From: Candidatus Ozemibacter sibiricus
GTDB lineage: Bacteria; Muiribacteriota; Ozemobacteria; Ozemobacterales; Ozemobacteraceae
Reading direction: 5' to 3'
Assembly: GCA_003327425.1 (NCBI GenBank)
Contig: QOQW01000037.1
Span: forward strand, 1 to 33,326
Length of the DNA stretch: 33,326 nucleotides
Positions 12,000-28,109 of this stretch are shown here, piece by piece. Below the pieces are notes generated by a model. That model saw nothing but the letters and a program-made list of their open reading frames with translations, ran no database searches and was not told the origin of the DNA. The position numbers and the translations under genes were made by a program. How positions within the stretch are numbered: the stretch's first letter is position 1; every line of letters starts with the position of its first letter.

Positions 12000-12028
12000 T
12001 TGACTTGCCGGCCAGCGCGGCATAGAAT
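12000..12028 (+). promoter_or_regulatory. Sigma-70 promoter of the radical SAM / kinase / aminotransferase operon
   Basis: TTGACT (12000-12005) and TAGAAT (12023-12028) are separated by the optimal 17 bases. A start point near 12035 would leave a leader of about 28 bases before the ATG at 12063, with GGGGA (about 12052-12056) as ribosome binding site. Confidence 0.72.
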
Positions 12029-12062: not shown

Positions 12063-13385
12063 ATGCGCGTCGCCCTCATCGATCCTTCGTTCATCCATCA
12101 GGGCCGGTTGCTGAAGCTCAAGCGGGTCGGCTATTTCCCTCTGACCATGCCCAGGCTGGCCGCCTGCTTCCCGCCGGAGACGCAACTGACCCTTATCTAT
12201 GAGAAATGCCAGGAGGTCGATGTCGACGTCCCTTACGATCTGGTCCTGTTCACGACGATGGGTCCGAACCTGGTGCGGGCCGAAGAGCTGGCGGCTCGCT
12301 TCCGACAACGCGGGATCCCCACCGTCGTCGGAGGATACAGCGTCCCGCCGTTCCTCGAACGATGCCAGGCCCATTTCGATGCGGTGGTGGTCGGGGACGG
12401 CGAAGCGATCATTCCGCGCCTGCTGAGCGATCTGGCGGCGGGTCGGCGACAGCGGGTCTATACCGACCTCGCCCCCTCGCTGGAGCGCCTGCCCCCGCCC
12501 CGGTTCGATCTGGTGCCTGCCGGCGTGATGGGCGATGTGGCGCCGGTCGAAGCCTCGCGCGGCTGCCCCAACGCCTGCACGTTCTGCGCGGTGACCGCTC
12601 TCTACGGCGCGCGGGCCCGCCGGGTGCCGGTCGCCGACGTCCTGCGCGACGCCCGGCAGGCCCGCCGCGAGCTGGGCCGCCGGCTGATCTACTTCACCGA
12701 TCCCAATTTCGCCGCCGACATGGCGCACGCCAAGGAGATCCTGCGCGGGCTCATCGCCGCCGACCTCGGCCTGGGGTGGCTGGCCAGCGTCGATCTGCGG
12801 GCCCTGGCCGACGAGGAGTTCCTGCGGCTGGCCAGGGCCTCGGGATGCTTCACCCTCCAGGTCGGCCTCGAGACCTTGGAACACCAGAACCTGCACGCGG
12901 TGAACAAGAGCTTCGCGGCCCGCCTCGACCAGACGGCGGCCGTGCGGCGGGCGCGGGCGCACGGCATCCCGGTGGTGGCCTTGATGATGCTGGGGTTCGA
13001 CGCCGACACTCCGGCGACCTTTCGCCAGGTGCAGTCCTTCCTCGAGCGGGAAAAGATCCCGCTGGCCGTGCTGCACCCTGTCGTGCCCATCCCCGGCACG
13101 CCGCTGCACGCCCGGCTGGCGGCGGAAGGCCGCCTGCTGCCCATCGATCCGGCGGATGCCGACGGGCTGCACCTGCATTTCCGACCGCGCCATTTCACCC
13201 CCGAGCGCTTCTTCGACGCCTACTGGCGGCTGAACCGCCGGCTGCTCAGCGGCCGCTCGATCGCCCGACGGTTCCTGCACGCTGGTTGGCTGCGCAACCC
13301 CCTGGCCTACCTGATTCTGCTGGTGACCAGCTTCCTGGCCCGGTCGGTGGTCGACCGCCGGCTGCCCATGGGCATGTACGAATGA
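12063..13385 (+). CDS. B12-binding-type radical SAM enzyme
   Basis: A 440-residue member of the radical SAM superfamily, in the subgroup with an N-terminal cobalamin-binding-like Rossmann domain (about 1-140: the start MRVALIDPSF, a VVGGYSVPPF strand-turn and a VVVGDGEA segment are typical). The iron-sulfur motif CxxxCxxC is Cys168, Cys172 and Cys175 in RGCPNACTFC. The radical SAM barrel spans about 155-360 and includes the GLET segment (FTLQVGLETLEHQN). The tail (about 370-440) ends in a hydrophobic stretch, LAYLILLVTSFLA, suggesting membrane association and thus a lipid-like substrate. Members of this group methylate or rearrange unreactive carbons. It is the first gene of the operon; its TGA overlaps the next ATG (ATGA at 13382-13385). 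The substrate is unknown. Confidence 0.9.
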   Translation: MRVALIDPSFIHQGRLLKLKRVGYFPLTMPRLAACFPPETQLTLIYEKCQEVDVDVPYDLVLFTTMGPNLVRAEELAARFRQRGIPTVVGGYSVPPFLERCQAHFDAVVVGDGEAIIPRLLSDLAAGRRQRVYTDLAPSLERLPPPRFDLVPAGVMGDVAPVEASRGCPNACTFCAVTALYGARARRVPVADVLRDARQARRELGRRLIYFTDPNFAADMAHAKEILRGLIAADLGLGWLASVDLRALADEEFLRLARASGCFTLQVGLETLEHQNLHAVNKSFAARLDQTAAVRRARAHGIPVVALMMLGFDADTPATFRQVQSFLEREKIPLAVLHPVVPIPGTPLHARLAAEGRLLPIDPADADGLHLHFRPRHFTPERFFDAYWRLNRRLLSGRSIARRFLHAGWLRNPLAYLILLVTSFLARSVVDRRLPMGMYE

Positions 13386-15931
13386 TCGATCCGCGCACGA
13401 AGCCCTCGCCCGTCATCGCCGACCTGTCGGCGGTGGGGGGGAAGGCCGCCCACCTGCTGGCGCTGCGCGACCTGGGAGCGCCCGTCCCGCCCTTCCTGGT
13501 CTGGCCGGTGGCCCAGTGGCGGAATTTCGTGGCTCATGCCATGGCCCGCCGCGAAGTCCCCTCCCCCACCCTGCCGGGAGACCTCGACGACGCCTCCGCC
13601 GAAGCGCGGCGCCAGGCCCTGCTGACCGTCCCCTTCCCCCCGGAGCTGCAGGCCGACCTGCAACGGGTCTGGGCGCATTTCGGTGGCCGCCCGCTCTGCG
13701 TGCGCTCCTCGGGTACGTTCGAGGATCTGGCCGACCTGTCGTTCGCCGGCCTGTACGACAGCGTCCTCGACGTGCGCACCGCGGCCGATCTGGAGCGCGC
13801 CGTGCGCACCTGCTGGGCGTCGGTCTACGGGCCGCGGGTGCGCCAGTACTGCCGCCATCATGGTCTGCCGCTGGCCAAGGCCGGTCTGGCCATCATCTTC
13901 CAGGAGTTCGTGGCCGGCCAGCAGGCCGGGGTGGCCTTCACCGTCAACCCCGTCACCGGCCGTCAGAACCACCTGCTGCTCGAATACTGCGAAGGCACCG
14001 GCGACAAGCTGGTGAGCGGCCAGGTGACTCCGCACAAAGCCGTCTGGGACCATAAAGCCGGGCGCTTGCTCGAAGGCCGCCTGCCGCCGGGTTTCCCCGC
14101 CTCCGCGCTGGCCCTGTTCCGGCGCATCCATCGCGAATTCGGGCAGCCCCAGGACATCGAATGGGTGCTGGCCGGAGGCCAGGTGTGGGTGGTTCAGACC
14201 CGCCCCATCACGCGGATCACGGTCGAGCCTTCGTTCGGTTGCTGGACGACGGCCGACTTCCGCGACGGCGGCGTCTCGAGCAGCGTGGTGACGCCGATGA
14301 TGTGGTCGCTCTACCGTTACATCTGGCAATTCTCCATGCCTCGCTACTTCGAGATCATCAAGATCCTCGAGCCTGAGCGCAAGACCGGGGTCAGTTGGGG
14401 GGAATGCCTGTTCGGCCGCCCGTATTGGAACCTCGGCGAGGTCGTGCGGCCCTTATTGAAGATCCCGGGCTTCGACGAGGGCAACTTCTTCTCCGATCTG
14501 GGCATCCAGACCGTTCCCGACTATCGGTTCCGGCGGGTGCCCACGACCCTGGCCAATGTCATCGGCATCGTGCCGACGGTGCTGGCCCTCGAACGCTACT
14601 ACGCCTACCGTATCCGGAAGAATCGCGAGTTCCGCCAGGCGTTTCCCGAGCTGATCAGACCCTTCGCCAAGACCGCGCTCTCTACGCTGTCGACGCCGGA
14701 GCTGGCCCGGCGATTCCGGCACTTGATCACGCACGTCTATTTCAAGACCGAATCGGCCTACTTCTTCACCATCTACAACACGAGCAACGCCAAACTCGAT
14801 TTCAAGATCTGGCTCGACACGCTCAACGGGCGCGGCAACGATATCTCGTACATCAAGCTGATCTCGGGTCTGCTGCGGATGAAACATCTGGCCCCCATGA
14901 AAGCGCTAGCCGACCTGGCTCGGCGCCTCCGTCGCGAACCGGAGCTGGCCGAGCTGGTGCTCCGCACGCCGGCGGGCGAGATCGACCGGGCCCTGGCCGG
15001 CCATCCACGGGGCGACTGGCTCGCGGCCGAAATGCGTTCGTTCCTCGCCCGCTACGGCTATCACAGCCCACGCGAACTCGATATCTCCTGCCCACGCTGG
15101 GAGGAAGACCCCCAGCCGGTCTGGCGGCTCCTCAAGACCTACCTGCGCGAGGGCGACCCGGCAGAGAGCGCCGTGGCCCACGAAAAACGCCAGCATGCGC
15201 TGTACCGCGCCGAGGTCGATCGGGCGCGGAGCTGCTACGAGACCTCGTGGCATCGGTGGCTTCCCTTCGAACGGTGGTTCTTCTTCCGGACCCTCCTGCG
15301 CACCCGCAAATACTGTTGGTGGCGCGAAGAGATGCGCGACTACTCGTCGCGGGTCTACGCGTTGATCCGCCGCTATCTGGTCGAAGCGGAGCGTCGACTG
15401 GGCCTCGAGCCGGGAGCCATCTGGTGGCTGACCTGGGAAGAGGTACTCGGCGGCCTGGAGGGGACCCTGTCGGCCGACGAACTGGCCAGGCGGCTGGCGG
15501 CCGCCATCGAAGAGGCCGAGATGTACCGCCTGTTCGCCAACCCTGACGAGCTGGGCACCGGCTTTTTGAGCCCCGCCGAGAAGAAGACTCCCGGTCGGGT
15601 CGGCACGCGCTGGCAAGGGCTGGGCTGCTCGCCCGGCGTGATCGAGGGGTCGGTGCGGGTGCTGCGTTCGATCGAGGAAGTCGACACCCTGCAACGCGGC
15701 GAGATCCTGGTCACGCCCTTCACCGACCCCGGCTGGACGCCCGCCTTCCACCTGCTGGGCGGCGTGGTCACCGAGACCGGCGGCATCTTGTCGCACGCTG
15801 CCGTCATCTCGCGAGAATACGGGATTCCCGCCGTGCTGAACCTGCCCGGCGCTTCTGGGCGCTTGCGCACCGGACAGCGCGTCCGGCTCGACGGATCGGC
15901 CGGAACGGTCGAGCTGCTAGGTGAAGGCTGA
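13382..15931 (+). CDS. Rifampin-phosphotransferase-like ATP-grasp / phosphohistidine-swivel enzyme
   Basis: An 849-residue dikinase-type protein. The N-terminal part (about 1-277) is a PEP-synthase-like ATP-grasp domain: VGGKAAHLLALRDLG, the VRSSGTFEDL loop and the ending WVVQTRPITRI. The C-terminal part (about 740-849) is the mobile His domain with His805 in TGGILSHAAVISREYGIPAV. The PEP/pyruvate barrel found in PEP synthase and PPDK is absent; instead a ~460-residue middle region (about 280-735) has the R/W-rich helical look of rifampin phosphotransferase (RTRKYCWWREEMRDYS). In that family ATP phosphorylates the His, which then passes phosphate to a small molecule. Total size matches rifampin phosphotransferase. 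It is coupled to both neighbours (ATGA upstream, TGATG downstream), which argues for a biosynthetic phosphotransfer step rather than antibiotic resistance. The acceptor is unknown. Confidence 0.9.
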   Translation: MIDPRTKPSPVIADLSAVGGKAAHLLALRDLGAPVPPFLVWPVAQWRNFVAHAMARREVPSPTLPGDLDDASAEARRQALLTVPFPPELQADLQRVWAHFGGRPLCVRSSGTFEDLADLSFAGLYDSVLDVRTAADLERAVRTCWASVYGPRVRQYCRHHGLPLAKAGLAIIFQEFVAGQQAGVAFTVNPVTGRQNHLLLEYCEGTGDKLVSGQVTPHKAVWDHKAGRLLEGRLPPGFPASALALFRRIHREFGQPQDIEWVLAGGQVWVVQTRPITRITVEPSFGCWTTADFRDGGVSSSVVTPMMWSLYRYIWQFSMPRYFEIIKILEPERKTGVSWGECLFGRPYWNLGEVVRPLLKIPGFDEGNFFSDLGIQTVPDYRFRRVPTTLANVIGIVPTVLALERYYAYRIRKNREFRQAFPELIRPFAKTALSTLSTPELARRFRHLITHVYFKTESAYFFTIYNTSNAKLDFKIWLDTLNGRGNDISYIKLISGLLRMKHLAPMKALADLARRLRREPELAELVLRTPAGEIDRALAGHPRGDWLAAEMRSFLARYGYHSPRELDISCPRWEEDPQPVWRLLKTYLREGDPAESAVAHEKRQHALYRAEVDRARSCYETSWHRWLPFERWFFFRTLLRTRKYCWWREEMRDYSSRVYALIRRYLVEAERRLGLEPGAIWWLTWEEVLGGLEGTLSADELARRLAAAIEEAEMYRLFANPDELGTGFLSPAEKKTPGRVGTRWQGLGCSPGVIEGSVRVLRSIEEVDTLQRGEILVTPFTDPGWTPAFHLLGGVVTETGGILSHAAVISREYGIPAVLNLPGASGRLRTGQRVRLDGSAGTVELLGEG

Positions 15932-18900
15932 TGCCGCCACGCCCCAAGCCCGCCAAAACGATTCGTCAGAGCGCTAGCCCCGACGGCCAGACGACCCGCC
16001 AGCCGACCGCGCCCCGTTCCGCCGGCGCTCCATCGCCGGGAAAAACGTCTGCAGGCGCGAAGAGAAAGATTGCCCCCGACGCCCCGCCTGCATCTTCGGC
16101 GGCTTCCGATCCAGCAGCGACGGCGACCCCGGCGGCGACCCGGGCGGCGACCCCGGCGCCGGCACCGGCCTCGCCCCCCGCCGCCGCGAATCCACCAGAC
16201 CCCTCCCCTCCCCTGCCCGCCACGCCCACGGTTCGACGATCTCCTCAGGCTGCTCCGGCCCGCCCGGCGTCCCAACCTCGAAGGCGATCGACGTCGTCGG
16301 GCCCGCGCGATACGACAGCCAGGCCACTCACCGGCCCGGACCGCACCGACGCAGGGGCCGGACCACCGCTCAGCGCTGGCTCTGCTGCCGCCCCCCCGCC
16401 TCCGCAGGCCCCACCGGGCCGCCCCCCAGACGGCCTGGCGGCTGGCGCCTCCATGGCCGACGAGCAAGAAGAGGCCAGGCGCCGCCACCCGCCCCGCCCG
16501 AAGGCTGGCGCTGAGCCTTCCCACCCCTCCTCGATGGCCAGCGCTTCTTCTCGATCCACCACCTCAGAAACCCCAGCCGAGGGCGACAGCGCTCCCCTGG
16601 CCGATCTCTACCAGCGGTTCTGCAAACCCGGCCTGGGCGCGATGCTGAAGGCCTTCGGGCTCGACATCGCCTACGAAAAGGCCCAGGGCGATCGGTTGAT
16701 CTGGCGCGACGCCGCCGGACGCCGCCGCACCGCCATCGACCTGGTCGGCTCCTACGGCGCCACACTGCTCGGTCACAATCACCCTCGCCTGCGACGCGTG
16801 CTGGCCAAGGCCCTGCAAGACTGCCCGCCCGTGCTGGTGCAGGCCAGCGTGCGCGGCGAAACGGCCCGTCTGGCCGAACGGCTGAACGACATCGCCCGGG
16901 CCCGCCTGGGAGCCGATTACGTGGTCCACCTGTGCAACAGCGGCGCCGAAGCGGTGGAAGCGGCGATCAAGCATCTGATCCTGATTCAGCGCGGCCGCTG
17001 GCAGGCTCGTTGCGAAGAGATCCTCACGGCGGCCGCCCACCTGCTGCGGCAGCAGGCGGCAGCGCCCGGCTCCTCGACGTTTCGCCACCTTTCCGAGTTC
17101 CTGGGAGAGAAAGTGCGTGATGCCGCCGAGGTGCTGGCGGCCCTCGACCGGTACAATTCGCGCGTGCTTGATACACCGCTGCCTTTGCTGGCCCTCGAAG
17201 GCGCCTACCACGGCAAGACCCTCGGCGCCCTCAGCCTGACCCACAACCCTCGCTATCGGTCTCCCTTCGCGCGGGAACTGCTGCCCACGCGGTTCCTGCC
17301 CCCCACGGCCGACGCGCTGCGCGAGGTCTTGACGCGATCGCGTCTCGAGCTGCTGCGGCTGACGCGCCGCCCGCGCGGCGGCCTGACCTTCGAGCCGGTC
17401 CCCATCACCGGCGCCTTGGGTCTGTTCGTCGAGCCGATGCTGGGCGAAGGCGGGGCCCGCCCCCTGCCCGGTTCTTTCTTGAAGGAAGCCGCCGAGATCG
17501 CCCGCACCGCCGAACTGCCAGTGGTGGCGGACGAGATCCAGACCGGGCTGGGACGAACCGGCACCTTCTTCGCCTGGGAACAGGCCGGGGCGCCCGCCCC
17601 CGATCTGCTGCTCCTGTCGAAGTTCCTGGGGGGCGGTCTGCTGAAGGTCTCGGCGATGCTGACCCGTCGAGAGATCGCCGACGACGAGTTCGGGGTGGTG
17701 CACACGTCGACCTACGCCGAGGACGGCCTGTCGAGTCGGCTGGCGCTCGCCGTCATCGACGCGCTCGAAGAGAAGGACGGCGCCCTGCTGGACGCGGTGC
17801 GCCAGGCGGGCGCCGCCTGGCGGGAACGTCTGCACGCCCTGCAGGCGCGGTTCCCCGATGTCATCCGCGAGGTGCGTGGTCGGGGGCTGCTGCTGGGCAT
17901 CGAGTTCGCCGACCTGCGCGACAGCGGCAGCCACCTGCTGCGCTTCCTGACCGAACAGGGCGACCTCGGCTACCTGTTCGCCGCGTATCTGCTGCACGCC
18001 CACGGCATCCGGGTGGCTCCCACCCTGAACGCCACCCGGACCATCCGCATCGAGCCCTCGGTGCTGCTTCCGCCCGCCGCCATGGCCCGGACGATCCGCG
18101 CCCTCGCCGCCCTCTGCCGCATCCTGCGCCGGCGCGATACCTTCCACCTGGTCAAATACATCCTTCCCGAATTTCGCACGCGGGCCACCCGCGGGCCAAC
18201 GGTCGCCGTGGAGGATTTCCGCGCCAACCCCGAGGCGGTCATGCAGCGACCGCCGCTCGCCCCCGAGAAGGTGGCCTTCCTGGGCCATTTCATCGATCCG
18301 ACCTATCTGGCGCGACACGAGCCGGCCTTGGGACGGTTCACGCCCGATCAGCTGGAAAGCCTGATCGAGCGCACCTGGAAGTATATCGATCCGTGCCTGT
18401 TCGCCTCGCGCGATATCGCCTCCCCGCTGGGCCCGGTGGTCAATTTCAATTTCGTGGGGTTGTCGGTGACCTCGGCCGTGCTGCTGCGCCACCTGCGCAC
18501 TCGCGATCTGGCCACCATCCGTCGGCAGATCCGGCTGGCTGTCGAAACGGCGCGCCGCGCGGGCGCGAAGCTGGTCGGCTTCGGGCAGTTCACCTCGATC
18601 CTGACCCGCAACTGCCAGGAACTGTGCGTGCCCGGGGTCGGCTTCACCTCGGGCAATACGCTCACGGCCGGCATGGCCGTGCGCGCCCTCGAGCAGGAGG
18701 TCGGGCGGCGTGGCTGGTCGTGGAACGATTTGCGAGTGGCCGTGGTCGGCGCCGGGGGCAACATCGGCTCGACCTTCGCCCGGCTGCTGGCCGACAAAGC
18801 CGGCCGCCTGCTCCTCATCGGAGGAACCGCCGCCGATTCGCGGCGACGGCTGGAAGAGACACGAGCCATGATCCTGGCGGACCAGGCCGCCCGCGTGCTG

Positions 18901-19470
18901 GCCGGCACCGTGGACACCCCGCTCGCCGAGTTCTTGCACCGGCGGGTCGGGCGGCGAGGGCTCGCGGAACTGCGAGACCAGGCGCGGGAAGTCGATTCCG
19001 CCCCCTTCGGCGCCCGCATCGCCGACCACTTGCGCGACCGATCCGGGGACGACCTGCCCATCGCGATCGCCGACCTGACCGCCGTGCGGGATTGTCGGGC
19101 CGTTCTGGCCGCGGTCAATGCCGTCCAGCCCTGCATCGGTCCGAACGATCTGGCCGCCGAAGCGGTGGTGTGCGATGTCAGCCTGCCCGATGCCCTGACC
19201 CCGGAAGCGGCTCGCCGCGAGGGGGTCGAGGTCTTCAAAGGCGGCATCGTGGCCCTGCCCAACCACGAGGTGCTGAACATCGGCGCCCTGCCGCTGGCCC
19301 CGGGCCTGGTCTATGCCTGCATGGCCGAGACCATCCTGCTCGGATTGGAGCGGCGGTGGGAAGATTACTCGGTCGGACCGCTCGACAAGCGCAAGGTGCT
19401 CGAGATGCTGGCCCTGGCCGATAAGCATGGGTTCCGCCTGGCCCGGCTCAAACTGAGTGCTTCCTTGTGA
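15931..19470 (+). CDS. Fusion of class-III aminotransferase and acyl-ACP reductase-like domain
   Basis: A 1179-residue fusion. Residues 1-~212 are Pro/Ala/Ser/Arg-rich and disordered. About 215-715 is a class-III PLP aminotransferase: HLCNSGAEAVEAAIK for phosphate binding, Asp534 in ADEIQTGLGRTG, and Lys564 in LLSKFLGGG as the Schiff-base lysine. About 775-1170 resembles cyanobacterial fatty acyl-ACP reductase: VAFLGHFIDP at its start, GVGFTSGNTLTAG, a nucleotide-binding VVGAGGNIGS (Gly940-Gly946), VFKGGIVALP, and Cys1130 in YACMAETILL, aligned with that family's thioester-forming cysteine. The likely chemistry is acyl thioester to aldehyde with NAD(P)H, then aldehyde to primary amine (inference; TamH of tambjamine synthesis is a known reductase-transaminase fusion). 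The ATG overlaps the upstream stop (TGATG) with AGGTGAAGG before it, which favours this start despite the odd N-terminus. Confidence 0.9.
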   Translation: MPPRPKPAKTIRQSASPDGQTTRQPTAPRSAGAPSPGKTSAGAKRKIAPDAPPASSAASDPAATATPAATRAATPAPAPASPPAAANPPDPSPPLPATPTVRRSPQAAPARPASQPRRRSTSSGPRDTTARPLTGPDRTDAGAGPPLSAGSAAAPPPPQAPPGRPPDGLAAGASMADEQEEARRRHPPRPKAGAEPSHPSSMASASSRSTTSETPAEGDSAPLADLYQRFCKPGLGAMLKAFGLDIAYEKAQGDRLIWRDAAGRRRTAIDLVGSYGATLLGHNHPRLRRVLAKALQDCPPVLVQASVRGETARLAERLNDIARARLGADYVVHLCNSGAEAVEAAIKHLILIQRGRWQARCEEILTAAAHLLRQQAAAPGSSTFRHLSEFLGEKVRDAAEVLAALDRYNSRVLDTPLPLLALEGAYHGKTLGALSLTHNPRYRSPFARELLPTRFLPPTADALREVLTRSRLELLRLTRRPRGGLTFEPVPITGALGLFVEPMLGEGGARPLPGSFLKEAAEIARTAELPVVADEIQTGLGRTGTFFAWEQAGAPAPDLLLLSKFLGGGLLKVSAMLTRREIADDEFGVVHTSTYAEDGLSSRLALAVIDALEEKDGALLDAVRQAGAAWRERLHALQARFPDVIREVRGRGLLLGIEFADLRDSGSHLLRFLTEQGDLGYLFAAYLLHAHGIRVAPTLNATRTIRIEPSVLLPPAAMARTIRALAALCRILRRRDTFHLVKYILPEFRTRATRGPTVAVEDFRANPEAVMQRPPLAPEKVAFLGHFIDPTYLARHEPALGRFTPDQLESLIERTWKYIDPCLFASRDIASPLGPVVNFNFVGLSVTSAVLLRHLRTRDLATIRRQIRLAVETARRAGAKLVGFGQFTSILTRNCQELCVPGVGFTSGNTLTAGMAVRALEQEVGRRGWSWNDLRVAVVGAGGNIGSTFARLLADKAGRLLLIGGTAADSRRRLEETRAMILADQAARVLAGTVDTPLAEFLHRRVGRRGLAELRDQAREVDSAPFGARIADHLRDRSGDDLPIAIADLTAVRDCRAVLAAVNAVQPCIGPNDLAAEAVVCDVSLPDALTPEAARREGVEVFKGGIVALPNHEVLNIGALPLAPGLVYACMAETILLGLERRWEDYSVGPLDKRKVLEMLALADKHGFRLARLKLSASL
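16122..16153 (+). repeat. 12-bp in-frame tandem repeat in the disordered region
   Basis: GGCGACCC recurs at 16122, 16134 and 16146, a 12-base period, encoding alternating Ala-Thr-Pro/Arg-Ala units within the low-complexity N-terminal part of the fusion enzyme. Because the period is a multiple of three, copy changes would alter length without breaking the frame. Confidence 0.6.
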
Positions 19471-19817
19471 GGTGCCTGAACCGCCCCGCTTGTTCCTGTC
19501 AGGGGCGCGCTCACGCCGCCTCGACGCTTCGGATCGAAGCCGGGTGGCGAATTGGCTGATCTCGAGCGCAGGACGGGAGCCGCGAACGCCTCTGCCTGGG
19601 ATTCCCCCTTTCCGAGAGGACAACCTGGGGTTCCACAATCTGAGCCAGATCCGAACACCCGACCTCGCTCGAGTCATTGGCCGCCGAAGCTGGTGCCTCG
19701 CCTGCGCCACGGCCTCGCTTCCCTTCGGCCCTATTGCAGGAAAAATCATGATTGACACCGTTTCCCCAGGCTTCTAAACTGGGAGAGTTCTCCAAAAAGT
19801 CTTATCTGGAGGAAACC
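19471..19817 (+). other. 347-base intergenic region with hairpins and a promoter
   Basis: No gene is supported here. A 6-bp inverted repeat CGCCCC/GGGGCG (19482-19487 and 19502-19507) and a compact hairpin GCTTCG-GAT-CGAAGC (19526-19540) follow the aminotransferase-reductase stop and may help to end its transcript, though no T run follows. A near-consensus promoter lies at 19752-19780, and the ribosome binding site GGAGGA is at 19808-19813. Confidence 0.5.
19752..19780 (+). promoter_or_regulatory. Near-consensus sigma-70 promoter
   Basis: TTGACA (19752-19757), a 17-base spacer and TAAACT (19775-19780). The -35 is a perfect match. Together with the strong ribosome binding site this predicts high, independent expression of the gene at 19818. 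Confidence 0.85.
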
Positions 19818-20855
19818 ATGAGAATCCTGTCGTGCCTGGTGATCCTGTGCCTGTCTTTCGCCCCCGTGGCCATGGCCGTGACCGCCGATGAGATCGTCGC
19901 CCATTTCGAGGAGAACCAGAACTGGACGAAATGTGCGATGGCAGCGTTCAAGGTGCTCAAGAAAGCCTCTGATCCGCGGATCGCCGACATGTATGAATTC
20001 GTCTCCGACAAGACCTATGATTACGAAGGCCTCATCATCGACGGCTCCGAATACCAGAATGCGGAACGCGGCCCTCTGGACGGACTGCTGTCGGTGATCA
20101 ATGATGGCGTGCTGGCCGTCATCCACAAGCTGGCCACCGATGAACACAAGAAGCTGTTCAAACCGACGTGGCTGGGCTTCCACACCCCCACCGACAAGAA
20201 AGTATCGAACTGGTTCTGCCTGATCATGGGCAACCACACCAAGACCTATCTGACGCGGGTCGACCAGCGGGCCAAGCTCGACGAGATCGGGGCCGATCCG
20301 CTGCAGATGAACCTGCTCGACAAGCGGTGGTTCACCTTCCAGGTGGTGAAAGATCTCGGCAACCGCGCGGTGCTGAAAGTACTGCCCAAGAGCGGTGCCC
20401 CGGTCAACGTCAAAGAGGCCACCATCGAGGTGGCCCGGCTGCAGGTCGGCGAGGCTGTCACCTGGTACGTGACGAAAATCTCGGGGACGCTGAACACCGG
20501 CTCTTCGGGCGTCACCGAGTTCGGCGACTTCCGCGTGGCAGCGGCGGTGCCGGGCAAGCAGTACATCGGCTGGTCGAACGACGGCAAGCAGATCGGCGAG
20601 GTGCCGGTCTATGGGCTCGGGCAGATCCAGCGCCAGAACGTCAAGCCCGATCAGAAATTGTTCGTCTTCGCGACCAGGCTCGACACCACCACCTACCAGA
20701 CCTCCCGCGAGGTCAAGGATTACGAGGTGAAACTGGTGACGAGCATCCAGCGGATCCACATCAATCCGCCGCTGCAGGTGGTGGCCGAGTACATCCAGCC
20801 CCAACGGTTGGCGACCTTGACCAAGGTGGCGCGCAAAATCGTTGCCGGGCATTGA
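19818..20855 (+). CDS. Secreted hypothetical protein next to the RND exporter
   Basis: A 345-residue protein with a signal peptide (about 1-21, ending in VAMA before VTADEI). The mature part has repeated basic/aromatic beta-like segments (VSNWFCLIMGNHTKTYL, RWFTFQVVKDLGN), a long middle with few charges clustered, and a Lys-rich C-terminus. The opening TADEIVAHFEEN is faintly like proteins of the LolA-like outer-membrane lipoprotein-sorting group that often sit beside RND/MMPL exporters, but I cannot confirm that family. GGAGGA at 19808-19813 fixes the ATG at 19818, and a near-consensus promoter and a following hairpin frame it as a single-gene unit. Function is unknown; a periplasmic role is likely. 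Confidence 0.85.
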   Translation: MRILSCLVILCLSFAPVAMAVTADEIVAHFEENQNWTKCAMAAFKVLKKASDPRIADMYEFVSDKTYDYEGLIIDGSEYQNAERGPLDGLLSVINDGVLAVIHKLATDEHKKLFKPTWLGFHTPTDKKVSNWFCLIMGNHTKTYLTRVDQRAKLDEIGADPLQMNLLDKRWFTFQVVKDLGNRAVLKVLPKSGAPVNVKEATIEVARLQVGEAVTWYVTKISGTLNTGSSGVTEFGDFRVAAAVPGKQYIGWSNDGKQIGEVPVYGLGQIQRQNVKPDQKLFVFATRLDTTTYQTSREVKDYEVKLVTSIQRIHINPPLQVVAEYIQPQRLATLTKVARKIVAGH

Positions 20856-21055: not shown

Positions 21056-23671
21056 ATGAGCGAAGCATCAGGCTCCTCTGGTCTCCGACGGTGGTTTCGC
21101 TGGATCGCCGACCACCACCGCCTGGTGCTCGCCATCGGCCTGGCTCTCGCGGTTTTCAGCGGTGTCGGGGTGCGCTCGCTGGAGGTCGATTTCGCGATCG
21201 AAAGCTTCTTTCCCCATGACGACCGCCATCGGCGCGTGTTCGTCGATTATACCCGGCAGTTCGGAAAAGACGACGATGCCATCCTGGTCCTGTGCGAAGG
21301 CCGGGTTGTGCTGGCCCCGACCTTTCTGCTGGCCTACGACCGCCTGGCGTCGGCCCTGGCCCGTCGGCCCGAACTGCGCCGCGTCGACTCGCTCCTGGAC
21401 GTGCCCGTGGTCGATCAGACCGATGAGATGGAGGTCCGGATCCGCCCGTTGCGGGAACGATTGTTCCCCGCCAGCACGCCCCGCCCCGCCAGCGTTGCGG
21501 CCGTCGAGGGGGCTGAGCCGCCCGTCCAGGGGGCGGGGTCCGAGGACCCGCCCCCGACAGTGCCACTGCCCAGCCCAACGGATATCGGAGAGCCAGAGAG
21601 CACGGGAACGATCGCGAACGTCTTCCCACTGGCGGCCTCAGGGACAGCTCAACCGGCGGCCTGTCCTTCTCTCCCCCCCTCCGACGCCACGACGAGCGGC
21701 TTTTCAACCAGCGCTCTGGCGTCGCTGGCGGCTTCGTTGCGCCGCGATGGCCCCTTTCTCGGAAATTATGTAAATCCGGAGGCGGGGGTGGCCGTGCTGG
21801 TCCTGCGGCTGGCCCCGGAGTGGTCCGATCACCACGGACGCACCACAGCCGTCGCCCGATTGCGCCAGGCGTTGGCGACGATTCCCCATCCCGGCATCGA
21901 TCGTCTCAGCCTGGCCGGCATGCCGGTGGCCCGGGCCGACGGGATGGCCCTCATCCAGCAGGATCAAGCGACCCTTTTGCCCCTGTCGTTGCTGGTCACG
22001 CTGATCGTGCTCTATTTGATCCTCCCCGACTGGACCGATGTCCTCCTGGTCGTGCTGACCACCGGCTTCACCCTGGTTTATACCTTCGGATTGATGGGCT
22101 GGCTGGGGTGGAAGTTCTCGATTCTCAGCTCGGTGGCCCCAGTCATCCTTGTCACCACCGGCACCACCTATAGCGTCCATCCCCTGGTTCGCCTGCCTCG
22201 CCGGGGTCGCCTTCCAGATCGCGAGCGCTTCCCCGAGACCTTCGCCGATCTGTTCCCGGCCCTCGCCCAATGCTGTTTGACCACCATCGTCGGCTTCGCT
22301 TCCCTGCTGCCCATCCAGATCACGTTGGTGCATGAGTTCGTCGCCATCGTCGGCACGGGGGTGGCCATCGCCTTCATCGTCGCCATGACCCTCCTGCCCG
22401 CGATGGTCGCCGGATTGGCCGTCGATGGCGGGCCGGCCGCCGCCTCCCCGGCCCAGCTTCCTGTTCCCCGCCGAAGCCGGCGCGATATCTTGCGGCGGCT
22501 GTTGAACGACTTCCTGCCTCAGGTGTGGCGGCGGCCACGGCTGGTGCTGGCGCTGCTGGGTCTGCTCATGCTGGCTGGTCTTCTGGCCGGAACGCACGTC
22601 CGGGTGAAGGCCTATGTCTTCGACGATTTCTGGGAAGACTCCGCATTGATGCAGCAGATCAGGCGGGCCGAGCAGGCCTGCCTGGGCATCCTGCCCGTGG
22701 CTGTTCTGGTCGAGGCCGCGCCCCGGGAAACCGTAGTGCGACATCGCTACTTGTCCCAGGCCGCCTCGATCACCGCGTTCCTGCGAACCCTCCCCGGCAT
22801 CGGCAAAGTCGACAGCCCGACCGATTTCATCGGCGAGGTCTGGCGGCTTTTCCAAGAAGGGGAAGGCTCCCCTCCCCCGTTCCCGCCTGATGAATCATCG
22901 CTTTCGGCCATCTTCCGCTTCATGCTGTCGGCCGGCAACCTCGCGGCTGATCAGGATTTCCTGACCCGCGACCTTTCCACCCTGCAGATCAAGGCCCGCC
23001 TGTTCGACCTCGAATCGGCCTCGGCCGCCGCGCTGTTGGATCGCATCCGCGGCGCCCTGGCGGCCACCGCCGATGCCTCGACCACGCTGCAACTGACCGG
23101 CACCACCGTGATGATCCAGGAGACCTACCGGCAGACGATCAGCAGTTTCATGCAGAGCCTGGGCTTCGTCATCGGTTGCACCGTCATCGTGTTCGCGTGG
23201 TTCTACCGCGACCGCACTCTCGTCGGGTGGGCCACCGCCGGGAATCTCGGCCCCTTGCTCTGCACCTTCGGGTTCATGGGCTGGTGGGGCATTCCCATCA
23301 AGATCTCGACCATCACGATCTTCGGCATCGCCCTCGGCCTCGCCGTCGACGACACCATCCACTTCCTCACCGTCTTCCGGCAGTGGCGCGCGCGGGGCAG
23401 AACCGATGCCGAGGCGGCACGCCGGGCCATCGTCGGCACCGCCCGCGGCATGGTGGTCTCATCGGCGGCGCTGTTCGCCGGCTTCCTGGTCTTGCTCTGG
23501 TCGGAATTCGAAGCTCAGTACCTGATCGGTCTGCTGCTCTGCTTCAACATCGCGATCGCCCTGCTGTTCGATCTGGCGTTCATCCCGGCGGCCGTCTCGC
23601 TCTGGGGCCCGGCCTCAGGCCAGAGCGTTTCCGCCCCTAAGGGAAGAATGCCCCAGACGACGAACGGGTGA
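21056..23671 (+). CDS. RND-superfamily (MMPL/HAE-3-like) exporter
   Basis: An 871-residue inner-membrane transporter, probably proton-driven, of the RND superfamily branch that moves lipids and other hydrophobic molecules. Topology is the standard duplicate: one helix (about 22-42), a large periplasmic loop (about 45-295), five helices (about 300-455), then helix 7 (about 503-523), a second loop (about 525-695) and five helices (about 700-855). The second half contains Asp765-Asp766 in GLAVDDTIHFL, typical of the proton-relay helix. The first loop has an unusual low-complexity Pro/Ser/Ala/Gly insert (about 140-220). The ATG at 21056 lacks a Shine-Dalgarno sequence. It follows the acyl-amine-type operon and a secreted protein, which suggests, but does not prove, export of a lipid-like product. 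Confidence 0.93.
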   Translation: MSEASGSSGLRRWFRWIADHHRLVLAIGLALAVFSGVGVRSLEVDFAIESFFPHDDRHRRVFVDYTRQFGKDDDAILVLCEGRVVLAPTFLLAYDRLASALARRPELRRVDSLLDVPVVDQTDEMEVRIRPLRERLFPASTPRPASVAAVEGAEPPVQGAGSEDPPPTVPLPSPTDIGEPESTGTIANVFPLAASGTAQPAACPSLPPSDATTSGFSTSALASLAASLRRDGPFLGNYVNPEAGVAVLVLRLAPEWSDHHGRTTAVARLRQALATIPHPGIDRLSLAGMPVARADGMALIQQDQATLLPLSLLVTLIVLYLILPDWTDVLLVVLTTGFTLVYTFGLMGWLGWKFSILSSVAPVILVTTGTTYSVHPLVRLPRRGRLPDRERFPETFADLFPALAQCCLTTIVGFASLLPIQITLVHEFVAIVGTGVAIAFIVAMTLLPAMVAGLAVDGGPAAASPAQLPVPRRSRRDILRRLLNDFLPQVWRRPRLVLALLGLLMLAGLLAGTHVRVKAYVFDDFWEDSALMQQIRRAEQACLGILPVAVLVEAAPRETVVRHRYLSQAASITAFLRTLPGIGKVDSPTDFIGEVWRLFQEGEGSPPPFPPDESSLSAIFRFMLSAGNLAADQDFLTRDLSTLQIKARLFDLESASAAALLDRIRGALAATADASTTLQLTGTTVMIQETYRQTISSFMQSLGFVIGCTVIVFAWFYRDRTLVGWATAGNLGPLLCTFGFMGWWGIPIKISTITIFGIALGLAVDDTIHFLTVFRQWRARGRTDAEAARRAIVGTARGMVVSSAALFAGFLVLLWSEFEAQYLIGLLLCFNIAIALLFDLAFIPAAVSLWGPASGQSVSAPKGRMPQTTNG

Positions 23672-23718: not shown

Positions 23719-24420
23719 TCATGACGCCGGTTTCTGGCATTCGATGAGCAGCATGCGCCCGTTGCGGATCTCCCGGACCGGCAGCAGCCCGGCTTGCTGG
23801 AGGGCCGTGCGCAGAGCGGCCGGTTCGAACAGGGTCGACAGCAGGCCCAGCTCGACGTAGCGTTCGGCGAGACGGCGGGGCCACCACCCTCGAGGTCGCA
23901 GCAGGACCGAGGCGAAGAACGTTCCCCGCGGCCGCAGGACGCGCGCCATCGAGGCCAGGGCCTGCTCGGGGAAGGGGATCACATGCAGCCCACCGAAACA
24001 GCAGACCCGGTCGAACGAGGCCGGCGGGAATGGCAGGCAGCGGGCATCGCCGCGAACCGGCCGGAAGCGCTCGCGGCCGAGACGACGCACCGCGCGGGTC
24101 AGCATTTCCTCCGAGATGTCGAGTCCGATGAGGACAGGGTCGACGACCAGCCGGCGCCGGACGATGGCCGTCAGGGAGCCGTCGCCGATCGCCACATCGA
24201 GGACCGGCTCGGGATGCCCTTCCAGCGCTTCCCGATAGAAGCGGACGAGCGGCCCGAGCGCGGCCCGCCAGACCGTGAGCATATTGAGCAGGGCGAGCGG
24301 GGCATACGCCAGGGCATAGAAGCGATACGCGGCCCCGACCCGCTGGGAAGCGTCGGATCCCCCGCTGGGGAGACTGCCGGTTGTTCGTGCCGAGAAGGCT
24401 ATGGAGGCATCCAGCGTCAT
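23719..24420 (-). CDS. Class I SAM-dependent methyltransferase
   Basis: A 233-residue methyltransferase of the Methyltransf_11/UbiE-like type. Motif I is VLDVAIGDGS (residues 73-82), which binds S-adenosylmethionine; the acidic end of the second strand is Asp in LIGLDISEEML; the FDRVCCFGGLHVIP segment is motif IV-like, and RVLRPRGTFFAS matches the post-strand-five region. It has no membrane segment, but residues 30-55 are hydrophobic and aromatic. The ATG at 24420 is the best start; it overlaps the stop of a possible 16-residue upstream frame (ATGA). It is the last gene of the minus-strand group and converges on the exporter gene, with 47 bases between the stops. The methyl acceptor is unknown; a quinone-like or lipid substrate is typical of this subgroup. 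Confidence 0.9.
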   Translation of the reverse strand: MTLDASIAFSARTTGSLPSGGSDASQRVGAAYRFYALAYAPLALLNMLTVWRAALGPLVRFYREALEGHPEPVLDVAIGDGSLTAIVRRRLVVDPVLIGLDISEEMLTRAVRRLGRERFRPVRGDARCLPFPPASFDRVCCFGGLHVIPFPEQALASMARVLRPRGTFFASVLLRPRGWWPRRLAERYVELGLLSTLFEPAALRTALQQAGLLPVREIRNGRMLLIECQKPAS

Positions 24421-25241: not shown

Positions 25242-25272
25242 ATTCTACCAGATAGGCCGAATTGGACGTCAA
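25242..25272 (-). promoter_or_regulatory. Candidate extended -10 promoter for the HEAT-repeat gene
   Basis: On the minus strand TGG-TAGAAT forms an extended -10 (TAGAAT at 25242-25247). A TTGACG at 25267-25272 lies 19 bases upstream, which is longer than ideal, and overlaps the stop codon of the epimerase gene. Confidence 0.45.
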
Positions 25273-26267
25273 GGAAGCCAGCCAACCTGGGAATACCATC
25301 TTCTGGTCAAGGCGATCCCCTGAGCGAGAGGGCTCCAGGTCAAGCCCGGCAGCAGGGTCTGCTGTCGGGAAAAATCCTGCAACCAATCCGAAAAGCTCAT
25401 CTCGCGGGCTTTTCCGCTGCTCATCAGGGGCGGTCGACCGGTCACCGTCTCAACCATATCGTACAGACGGCCCAGAAGGCGGGTGGCGCCGGGTGGCAGG
25501 AACAGCGAGCGCAACGGCGCCCGCCCGGCGGCGTCACCGAGACCGGCAGCCAGATCGTGGTCGGTGCAGATCGTGGGGTTCCCCACGTTGAGAATGCCGT
25601 CGAGTCGATCTTCATCGACCACCCGCCACAAGGCGCGGGCGATATCGGTGACCAGAGCGAGATTGAATCGCTTGCGCGCGGTGGCCAGACGGGGGAACCA
25701 TCCGCGTTCAGCCCACCGAAAAAGGTCGAGGAAGCAGGGATCGCCCGGGCCGTACACCGAGCAGAGCCTCACCACGAGATGCCGGCCTTTCTGCCCACCT
25801 GGGCTGACAGGGTCGGCCAGCAGAACTTTTTCTCCAGCCAGCTTCGAGCGGCCATAGAGGCAGACCGGTTGGGACCTCGCCTCTTCAGACAGGGGGTGGC
25901 CGGCTCGGGCCGGCCCGACCGCGGCGACCGACGAGACATAGATGAGGCGAGGCGGAGCGGGGAGTCCCCGGGCGGCTGTCAGGACATGGCGGATGGTCTC
26001 GACATTGGCCGCCCGGTACCGGGCGGGGGAATGGCCGAACATATTGCCGGCCAGATGCACGACCGTGTCGCACCCGATCATGGCCGCGCGCAGGGCCGCG
26101 ACATCGGACAGCGGCAGGGCGCGCCATTCCCACCCAGGGGCTTCGATGGGCGGCGTGCCGGGCAGGATGAGGGCCACTCCAGCATCGCGGCCGGTATCGA
26201 CGGCCATCTGCACCAGGTGCCGTCCGATGAAGCCGTTGGCCCCGGTGATCAAGGTTCGACGGGCCAT
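25269..26267 (-). CDS. NAD-dependent epimerase/dehydratase family protein
   Basis: A 332-residue extended short-chain dehydrogenase. The nucleotide-binding loop is TGANGFIG (Gly9, Gly12, Gly15), followed by the family's VVHLAGNMFG strand and the active-site Ser112/Ser113 in YVSSVAAVGP with Tyr138 and Lys142 in YGRSK. The C-terminal half carries the usual VRLCSVYGPGDP and LNVGNP segments for substrate binding. The family acts on nucleotide sugars, hydroxysteroid-like or acyl substrates, so the reaction cannot be fixed; a keto-reductase on a lipid is as likely as a sugar epimerase here. The ATG at 26267 lies 19 bases inside the end of the upstream SDR gene, indicating one operon with it. Confidence 0.92.
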   Translation of the reverse strand: MARRTLITGANGFIGRHLVQMAVDTGRDAGVALILPGTPPIEAPGWEWRALPLSDVAALRAAMIGCDTVVHLAGNMFGHSPARYRAANVETIRHVLTAARGLPAPPRLIYVSSVAAVGPARAGHPLSEEARSQPVCLYGRSKLAGEKVLLADPVSPGGQKGRHLVVRLCSVYGPGDPCFLDLFRWAERGWFPRLATARKRFNLALVTDIARALWRVVDEDRLDGILNVGNPTICTDHDLAAGLGDAAGRAPLRSLFLPPGATRLLGRLYDMVETVTGRPPLMSSGKAREMSFSDWLQDFSRQQTLLPGLTWSPLAQGIALTRRWYSQVGWLP

Positions 26268-27058
26268 TGGAACTCGTCGTGCGCTTGCGGCTGGATACGG
26301 ACCTGCGTGCGATACCGATGGGCGAGCCACCAGTACACCCGATCCGGAAGCCAGGAAAGCAGGGTCATTCCCCAGGCGTGGTACCAGGGAAAGCGGATGA
26401 TGTCGTGGCCGGCCTCGATGCAGGCCAGAACATGCCGCACGCCGCGTTCGACCGGCCAGATGCCGGGCATGGGAAACCGGTTCTGCGCGCTCATCGGCGT
26501 TGCCACATAGCCCGGAGCGATGGTGATGACACGAATTGCAGAACCGTACAAGTCGATTCGCAGGCAGTCGAGATAGCGTTCCAGCGCGGCCTTGGAGGCG
26601 CAATACGCCCCGCCGCGCGGCATGCCGCGAACCGCCGCCATGCTGGTAAACCCGGCCAGCACCGCCTCCGGCCGGCGCCGCAACCCAGGCAGGGTGAGAT
26701 CGATGAGGCGCACCGCGCCTTCGAAGTTCACCCGGATGGTGTCGAGGGTGCGCGCGAGATCAGGCGCTTCGACGAAATCGGGCCGGGAAACGCCAGCACA
26801 GTAGAACACCCCGTCGAGGTCGGGGGCTTCCCGCTGCAGGAATTCCCCGAGGCGCGCGATATCTTCGGGGCGGCGCACATCGCCGGGGTGCAGGAGCAAC
26901 CCGCCTTTGCCGCGGAAATCGGGATCTTCCGCCAGCGCCCCAGCCCGGCGCGAAAAGGCAATGACCCGATTCTCCCGCTGCAACAGCTGGCGAACCAATT
27001 CCCGGCCCAGGCCGCTGGTGGCACCGACCACCAACAGAGTGCGTTGCGTGAGCTTCAT
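26249..27058 (-). CDS. Short-chain dehydrogenase/reductase
   Basis: A 269-residue classical SDR, an NAD(P)-dependent oxidoreductase. It has the cofactor loop GATSGLG (Gly12, Gly16, Gly18), Asn111 in IRVNFEG, and the catalytic Ser139, Tyr152 and Lys156 (FTSMAAVRG and YCASK). The end beyond about 215 is aromatic and basic (WYHAWGMTLLSWLPDRVYWW), a pattern of SDRs acting on lipids at the membrane surface, such as 3-ketodihydrosphingosine reductase-like enzymes; this is suggestive only. The ATG at 27058 follows the upstream stop by four bases and its 3-prime end overlaps the epimerase gene, so the three genes form one operon. The exact substrate is unknown. Confidence 0.92.
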   Translation of the reverse strand: MKLTQRTLLVVGATSGLGRELVRQLLQRENRVIAFSRRAGALAEDPDFRGKGGLLLHPGDVRRPEDIARLGEFLQREAPDLDGVFYCAGVSRPDFVEAPDLARTLDTIRVNFEGAVRLIDLTLPGLRRRPEAVLAGFTSMAAVRGMPRGGAYCASKAALERYLDCLRIDLYGSAIRVITIAPGYVATPMSAQNRFPMPGIWPVERGVRHVLACIEAGHDIIRFPWYHAWGMTLLSWLPDRVYWWLAHRYRTQVRIQPQAHDEFQWPVEP

Positions 27059-27062
27059 GGGC

Positions 27063-28109
27063 TCAACGACTGGCCCGCAGGGAAGCATCGTAGGCCAGCA
27101 GAGCCTTGAGATAGGCCTGCAGGTCGCTGCACGTGCCGAACAGGTTCAACAGATAGGGGACATCGAGGGGAAAGGCCTTCCCATCGATGGAGAGGGTGAT
27201 TCCCGGGTCGGCGCGCATCCGGCCGATCCGTTTGATGGTCAGGTTCTCTTCCTGGGCGCGGGCCAGGAAGGCTGGTTCGCGGGCGGGGGACACCGCCAGG
27301 ATCAACTCGTACTCCCCCATGCCGAAGACGTTGACCAGCCACAGCGGAAAGCGGATCTTCTCGGTCAGGGCGACCAGGGGCGGCGCGTAGAGATCGGGCG
27401 CGTGTTCGAAGTCGATCCCCACCCCGTTGAGATCGGCCAGGATCGCCAACCCCTGCAGCAGCGCATCGCTCGTGTCGATGGAACACGACACGAAGGGCGC
27501 CAGCGCCAGGCCTTCCTTGAGACGGGCCACCGGCTTGTACTCTTTTTCCAGGGTCGCCCACAGGCCTTTGTCGACCTGGGAGGCGATGCCCAGCAAGTTG
27601 CCCGTGCCAAGGGGGCCCGTGATGTACAAGAGATCGCCGGGCGCGCCGCCCACCCGCAGCGTGGGCTCGGCGCGAGCGATGGTTCCGAGAGCGGTACAGG
27701 TGAATCCAGGCTCGGACGCGAAGTTGGTATCGCCACCGAGGCAGTAGGTGCCATGAGCGCGCACCGCGGCATCGACACCGTTGAAGAACGCCTCCTGCCA
27801 GGCCGCCTCGGCGGTGCGCGGGAAGCTGACGGCGACCAGCACGCCGAGTGGCGAGGCCCCGACCGCGGCCAGGTCGCTGAGACTGTGGGCCACCACGTTC
27901 CAGCCCAGGATGAAGGGATCGCGGATGATCCCGAGGGCGTATTCCTCATGGATGCCATCGACGGTCGCGGCCAGCCACGACCCGTCGGCCATCCGCACGA
28001 TTTCGGCATCGGCTTGATGGGTCCGGTTGCGCTGCTGCGGATGTCGTTCCAACCGCGCGGTCAAACGGTTGATCAGCGAAAACTCCGTATACTTCTCCAA
28101 CCCAGCCAT
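27063..28109 (-). CDS. AIR-synthase-related, thiamine-monophosphate-kinase-like protein
   Basis: A 348-residue member of the PurM/ThiL/SelD fold. Matches to ThiL in order: TVDGIHEEYA in place of the TTD-VEG-HF segment, SLSDLAAVGASPLG, LGGDTNF, DTSDALLQGLAILAD and GMGEYELIL in place of the GGEDYEL box. The N-terminal GDDAA metal/ATP motif of genuine ThiL is altered to QADAE. It therefore may not phosphorylate thiamine phosphate; it could act on another substrate or have lost catalysis. GAAAGGAT lies upstream of the ATG at 28109, and a candidate extended -10 promoter is nearby. It heads the operon with the SDR (gap of four bases) and the epimerase. No thiamine genes are close, which weakens a thiamine role. 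Confidence 0.82.
   Translation of the reverse strand: MAGLEKYTEFSLINRLTARLERHPQQRNRTHQADAEIVRMADGSWLAATVDGIHEEYALGIIRDPFILGWNVVAHSLSDLAAVGASPLGVLVAVSFPRTAEAAWQEAFFNGVDAAVRAHGTYCLGGDTNFASEPGFTCTALGTIARAEPTLRVGGAPGDLLYITGPLGTGNLLGIASQVDKGLWATLEKEYKPVARLKEGLALAPFVSCSIDTSDALLQGLAILADLNGVGIDFEHAPDLYAPPLVALTEKIRFPLWLVNVFGMGEYELILAVSPAREPAFLARAQEENLTIKRIGRMRADPGITLSIDGKAFPLDVPYLLNLFGTCSDLQAYLKALLAYDASLRASR

Follow-up and report, generated by a model that had tools for sequence, protein, structure and literature searches.

A radical SAM enzyme, a dikinase-type ligase and a transaminase-reductase fusion in Candidatus Riflebacteria as the putative core of a long-chain amine pathway

We analyzed a 33,326-nucleotide stretch of DNA (the window; contig QOQW01000037.1) from Candidatus Ozemibacter sibiricus, an uncultured bacterium of Candidatus Riflebacteria. 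Open reading frames and their translations confirm that three consecutive forward-strand genes lie at 12,063-19,470 – encoding a B12-type radical S-adenosylmethionine (SAM) enzyme, a ligase or phosphotransferase that we call L1, and a transaminase-thioester reductase (TA-TR) fusion. Pfam, NCBIfam and structure matches (Radical_SAM, Rph-fold enzyme, aminotransferase-reductase fusion) agree with the enzyme types named in an earlier note on this DNA, and its description of a promoter with a 17-bp spacer and of genes joined by ATGA and TGATG overlaps also holds. The sigma-70-type promoter, TTGACT-N17-TAGAAT (12000..12028, +), has 10/12 matches and is kept as TTGACT-N17-TACAAT in the sister species G001; across 11.7-20 kb, 3 promoter-like sites were observed against 0.4 expected in shuffles. 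The radical SAM gene (12063-13385) and the ligase gene (from 13382) overlap as ATGA; four relatives keep an overlap at this junction, 4 nt long in three of them and 8 nt in the fourth. The ligase stop and the fusion start (ATG at 15931) overlap as TGATG, an arrangement kept only within the genus (ATGA in G001) and not present elsewhere. Gene calls for the relatives come from a simple codon-usage script, most of the genomes are metagenome-assembled genomes (MAGs), and adjacency was counted on few genomes.

The fusion gene (15931..19470, +) encodes 1179 amino acids as annotated from the overlapping ATG, and its architecture is that of PtTamH. A Pro/Ala-rich N-terminal extension or linker (15931..16593, +) precedes a class III transaminase domain (16594..18063, +; Pfam Aminotran_3, 6e-60) with pyridoxal phosphate (PLP) lysine K564 and a thioester reductase domain (18064..19470, +) that resembles the structures of acyl-acyl carrier protein (ACP) reductase (AAR) and PigE. 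K564, the reductase glycines G940 and G943, and C1130 at the catalytic position are invariant in 25/25 aligned TA-TR fusions; the third glycine of the GxxGxxG motif, G946, was read from the window sequence. Comparison with relatives suggests that the Pro/Ala-rich stretch is possibly not fully translated. It spans ~220 amino acids in the window and about 66 in G001 and is absent in other genera, and because it varies within the genus and is missing beyond it the translation start is uncertain. PtTamH, from the tambjamine YP1 cluster of Pseudoalteromonas tunicata, shares these features: a class III transaminase at the N terminus, an AAR-like thioester reductase at the C terminus, the nucleotide motif, the PLP lysine and the cysteine at the catalytic position. 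With its catalytic-position cysteine and PLP lysine, PtTamH converts C12-ACP to the C12 amine in vitro with NADH and glutamate (PMC9594044), and PigE from prodigiosin synthesis has the same two activities in reverse order, reductase then transaminase (PMC8341465). PigE was the best named NCBIfam match for the window protein and was rejected on its opposite domain order and a score of 322 bits against a cut-off of 850. Fatty-amine formation, a predicted activity strongly indicated by these residues and domains, is the most secure functional statement that we make about the cluster.

L1 (13382..15931, +; 849 amino acids) consists of a PPDK_N ATP-binding domain (Pfam, 6e-49), a helical middle domain and a swivelling His domain (PEP-utilizers mobile domain, 3e-22). 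The C-terminal TIM barrel that binds phosphoenolpyruvate (PEP) or pyruvate was found neither by Pfam (no PEP-utilizers_C match) nor in an AlphaFold2 (AF2) model, which excludes a PEP synthase. The AF2 model (pLDDT 84) matches rifampin phosphotransferase (Rph), the closest solved structure, over its full length (Foldseek, E=4e-36). In a tree of 53 ligases that took in true RedH and Rph and left out PtTamQ and PigC, the TA-TR-associated ligases group together (100/100) to the exclusion of RedH and Rph, and true RedH sequences form a clade of their own (100/100). No true PigC was drawn from the gammaproteobacterial sample for this tree, and a search with 30 bases of DNA from the RedH locus gave no match. 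NCBIfam scores for L1 lie far below the cut-offs for RedH (295/1350 bits), PigC (277/1300) and Rph (264/999). Based on tree placement and these scores, we therefore assign L1 to a new clade of the PigC/RedH/Rph superfamily and reject its identification as RedH or PigC, or as a rifampin phosphotransferase. H805 of the swivelling domain and the ATP-site residues are invariant in the L1 alignment, and L1 is probably active because both are kept.

We examined how these genes are distributed in other genomes. The order radical SAM-L1-TA-TR is found in G001, G003, G007 and G014, which represent three genera of the window's family. G037, which belongs to a different family of the phylum, has L1 next to TA-TR; three radical SAM genes lie ~15 kb off on the same contig, in tandem and upstream of the L1/TA-TR cluster (L145:452-4408). 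Outside the phylum, L1 adjoins TA-TR in an alteromonad MAG (L007) and in Mycobacteroides (L028), and in Nocardia a single ~1945-amino acid protein combines TA-TR, L1 and a thymidylate-kinase-like domain (L012:8378-14215, L019:8369-14203, L021:8408-14242). An L1 profile search made independently of TA-TR neighborhood covered 399 genomes of the Nocardia order, which gave no new case, and 369 Gammaproteobacteria, which gave one new genome (G083) with TA-TR as the neighbor of L1. L1 is rare, and nearly all of the other ~765 sampled genomes lack it; this distribution is that of the sampled genomes, not of the whole collection. In one genome (G022) L1 and TA-TR are on different contigs, and the contig with the second copy in G042 ends at L1. 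From adjacency in Riflebacteria, Mycobacteroides and Gammaproteobacteria, and from the Nocardia fusion, we infer that L1 and TA-TR are functionally linked. Recurrence in unrelated genomes, which the earlier note had asked of all three genes, is thus seen for the L1/TA-TR pair, present in three phyla that include Nocardia and a Mycobacteroides chelonae genome, and not for the strict trio, found only in Riflebacteria.

The radical SAM gene (12063..13385, +; 440 amino acids) is the variable part of the system. Its product matches Pfam Radical_SAM (4e-16) and carries the CxxxCxxC cluster motif in the alignment (C168/C172/C175); the B12-binding match is weak (26.9 bits, below the cut-off of 32.1). 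Assignment to TIGR04072, the ladderane-type B12 radical SAM family, was rejected at 86.9 bits against a cut-off of 360. Radical SAM proteins form a large family, of which a single genome encodes several paralogues. Flavobacteriaceae (L011) and other Riflebacteria (L098, L151) have a relative of this gene together with a TA-TR but no L1.

TA-TR fusions also occur in other surroundings. In Rheinheimera, Xenorhabdus and Photobacterium (L003, L005, L006, L008, L240) a different system pairs TA-TR with ACP, ketosynthase-like genes and short-chain dehydrogenase (SDR) reductases, and in several cases with an MMPL-like exporter, without L1; it probably makes an amine-terminated polyketide or fatty chain. 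A sister system in Riflebacteria family f7 and a Flavobacteriaceae MAG (L098, L150, L151, L011) contains TA-TR, two GNAT-like proteins and at least two radical SAM genes, again without L1. Many Chloroflexi, mostly Anaerolineae, encode relatives of the reductase domain with no detectable transaminase part (L023-L080). The plasmid collection yielded no L1 covering most of its length, and TA-TR fusions there stand in other contexts only.

The wider gene set extends beyond the window. On another contig of the same genome (C5, near 109-119 kb) lie genes for a nucleotidyltransferase-like NTP_transf_5 protein, a second ligase of PEP-synthase-like type (L2), a HAD phosphatase, a TMPK-like kinase, an alpha-oxoamine synthase and a DAGK-like lipid kinase. 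In G007 the trio sits inside one ~30 kb cluster (L092+L153) that contains all of these families together with SDR, epimerase, methyltransferase, polyketide synthase, a second radical SAM and MMPL genes. Ten families of the G007 cluster – TA-TR, L1, L2, TMPK-like, oxoamine synthase, NTP_transf_5, HAD, DAGK, SDR and methyltransferase – also share one cluster in Mycobacteroides (L028+L216) and in Nocardia (L012+L217), and six of the ten are those at the window genome's second locus. That most of the set comes back in Nocardia and Mycobacteroides marks it as a genuine biochemical system. The earlier note had treated the three genes as a unit; that view does not survive the variability of the radical SAM gene and the recurrence of about ten other families alongside L1/TA-TR, of which six lie on a different contig of this genome.

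An ortholog of the second-locus oxoamine synthase (>=70% identical) occurs in every genome with an intact trio (5/5) and in 2/35 others, both of these less than 70% complete (P about 3e-5 by a simple hypergeometric count that ignores phylogeny, the genomes being related). The synthase itself falls below curated cut-offs, including those for KBL and BioF, and was rejected as a serine palmitoyltransferase (SPT) at 378 bits against 640 for the best SPT model. The sister genome G002, from the same genus, has lost both trio and synthase. It retains collinear remnants of the promoter, the radical SAM start, the transaminase, the W10 gene (see below) and the MMPL gene, with several deletions; the ligase is gone, the promoter and radical SAM start are joined to the gene 3 linker (L097), and the oxoamine synthase was not found.

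Ligases of the L1 and L2 types have further neighbors elsewhere. Three gammaproteobacterial loci (L197, L198, L007) place L1 and L2 beside varying subsets of CarS-like, CDP-alcohol phosphatidyltransferase, phosphatidylserine (PS) decarboxylase and UbiA-like genes, and these clusters look like an unusual phospholipid pathway. Actinobacterial L2-type ligases (L206, L207, L209, L210, L211) have conserved neighbors of butyrolactone type: a large AMP-ligase-like protein, ACP, a reductase, an NDK-like protein, a UbiA-like gene and an AfsA hotdog protein form the cluster with them.

Downstream of the trio, a second promoter-like site (TTGACA-N17-TAAACT, 19752..19780, +) precedes W10 (19818..20855, +), a predicted secreted protein of 345 amino acids with no Pfam family that is conserved beside the MMPL transporter. 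Its AF2 model is poor (pLDDT 51), and the best Foldseek hits, LolA3/LolA, are not significant (E about 1e-2). An MMPL/RND-family exporter follows (21056..23671, +; Pfam MMPL, 9e-19). On the opposite strand are a SAM-dependent methyltransferase of uncertain start (23719..24420, -), related to the methyltransferase half of an SDR-methyltransferase fusion in Nocardia and Mycobacteroides; an NAD-dependent epimerase/reductase (25269..26267, -); and an SDR (26249..27058, -) that is 50% identical to the SDR of the G007 cluster. W10, exporter, methyltransferase, epimerase and SDR are kept in relatives in varying subsets. An AIR-synthase-like protein (27063..28109, -) is a conserved neighbor in G001 and G003, and its membership in the pathway is uncertain.

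Taken together, the best reading of the cluster is known enzyme chemistry in a new combination. We consider it likely, judging from gene content and conserved residues, that the trio forms the core of an uncharacterized pathway for an exported, lipid-like molecule containing a long-chain amine. The earlier note's proposal of a biosynthetic system around such an amine gains support from the PtTamH architecture and catalytic residues of gene 3 and from the lipid-like cluster with its MMPL exporter. In the first step, the TA-TR reductase would very likely take a fatty acyl group from ACP onto C1130 and reduce it to the aldehyde, which the fused transaminase, with PLP on K564, would convert to the primary fatty amine. 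PigC, RedH and TamQ are thought to activate an oxygen by phosphorylation and then join a partner. L1, placed with the TA-TR amine on account of fusion and adjacency, may similarly use ATP and a phospho-His at H805 to phosphorylate an oxygen of the partner and join the amine to it; alternatively, it may phosphorylate the amine product. The radical SAM enzyme could then modify the chain or the partner, by C-methylation or another radical step, as optional tailoring. The partner is plausibly a sphingoid-like amino-ketone or amino-alcohol made and finished by the window methyltransferase, SDR and epimerase together with the second-locus enzymes: the oxoamine synthase would supply the amino-ketone and the SDR or epimerase would reduce it. 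Kinases, HAD and NTP_transf_5 may build a phosphate-containing head, and MMPL and W10 may export the product. We suggest only tentatively, as a somewhat doubtful extension, that the product is a two-nitrogen bacterial lipid of a new class – a sphingoid-like amino-alcohol plus a fatty amine, joined or head-grouped by L1 and L2 as a new clade of PEP-synthase-like ligases – whose gene set is largely common to Riflebacteria and Mycobacteriales, with related modules in Gammaproteobacteria.

L1 could instead be a true kinase like Rph, one that performs no coupling and places a phosphate on the hydroxyl or the amine of the fatty-amine product; the result would be a phosphoramidate or a head group resembling that of a phospholipid. 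This is a serious alternative, with rather less than an even chance. Rph is the closest solved structure, and the wider set includes DAGK, TMPK-like, HAD and NTP_transf_5 genes; L1 nonetheless falls outside the Rph clade, with a score far below the family cut-off, and the pathway already has a DAGK-like lipid kinase. Gammaproteobacterial and other Riflebacteria clusters place L1 with a CarS-like CDP-lipid synthase, CDP-alcohol phosphatidyltransferase, PS decarboxylase and UbiA-like genes, which support a kinase because such enzymes need a phosphorylated lipid, whereas no CarS/PssA/PSD was seen in Nocardia, G007 or the cluster of the window. The association of L1 and L2 with CDP-lipid genes in Gammaproteobacteria again indicates lipids and leaves the kinase reading of L1 standing.

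A relative of tambjamine or prodiginine synthesis, in which L1 condenses a pyrrole aldehyde with the fatty amine and the oxoamine synthase takes the role of the PigH synthase domain, is improbable. Four pig/tam functions do have homologues here (ligase, TA-TR, methyltransferase and second-locus oxoamine synthase), but L1 is excluded from the RedH clade, and no prolyl-AMP ligase, prolyl-peptidyl carrier protein dehydrogenase or pyrrolyl-ketoacyl synthase was recognized among the annotated window genes and the flanks of the synthase locus, lipid-type kinases and an MMPL exporter standing in their stead. We disfavor tambjamine itself as the product on similar grounds, as no genes for the bipyrrole aldehyde (MBC) were recognized in the clusters read; in both cases whole genomes were not searched. 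There is also a small chance that the trio genes are mere neighbors, in which case TA-TR would supply an amine pathway of its own, and the radical SAM enzyme and L1 would act elsewhere. TA-TR fusions without L1 in Rheinheimera, Xenorhabdus, Photobacterium and Haematobacter, and the many radical SAM paralogues, would fit such an arrangement; the promoter, overlaps and gene order conserved across genera, the fusion of L1 with TA-TR in Nocardia and the joint decay in G002 argue against it.

Several observations weigh against the proposed amine-lipid pathway. The radical SAM gene is missing from the related clusters of Nocardia, Mycobacteroides and Gammaproteobacteria, and the tree of L1 does not agree in full with that of TA-TR. 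Identity between L1 and RedH is only 26-29%, and this low value together with the position of L1 outside the RedH clade leaves its reaction at the level of a prediction. The window genome's L2 (L225, corresponding to C5 104000-123999; 11798-13858) lacks the N-terminal ATP-binding domain, as does that of G003 (L229), whereas G007 and G014 have a complete L2 and G001 an almost complete one; the domain may be needed in trans, or the gene may be decaying. Two-locus linkage and concerted loss rest on few related MAGs. Finally, neither an ACP nor an acyl-activating enzyme was recognized in the window, and we therefore presume that fatty acid synthesis supplies the acyl donor.

Characterized systems resemble the cluster in part. 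The earlier note had found no pathway to name. A ligase with a transaminase/reductase is in fact the end of the tambjamine pathway (TamQ plus TamH), and PigC, RedH and TamQ share with L1 the PPDK_N and swivelling His domains without a TIM barrel and are paired with a TA/TR-derived amine or pyrrole. Here, however, no bipyrrole genes were seen in the clusters read, and the ligase clade differs from RedH. Compared with the PtTamH context, the window TA-TR is accompanied by an L1-clade ligase, a radical SAM enzyme and lipid-type genes, and it carries the Pro/Ala N-terminal extension; compared with Rph, L1 has a context of lipid synthesis, not resistance. By analogy, the mix of alpha-oxoamine synthase, lipid kinase and nucleotidyltransferase-type genes recalls bacterial sphingolipid pathways such as that for Caulobacter ceramide phosphoglycerate, although the synthase here scores below serine palmitoyltransferase cut-offs. 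We know of no bacterial sphingolipid pathway that includes TA-TR and two PEP-synthase-like ligases. Titles and abstracts of the literature on fatty amines and PEP synthase contained nothing beyond PtTamH and no description of this cluster in Riflebacteria, and no published pathway of this type came up in the searches made here.

These results suggest that L1 represents a new dikinase-type ligase clade with a physical link to an enzyme predicted to form fatty amines. The family is so far known for condensing pigments and phosphorylating antibiotics, a repertoire to which the L1 reaction would add, and L1 may make a lipid that lipidomics has not yet sought. Recurrence in Nocardia and Mycobacteroides opens the system to testing in culturable organisms.

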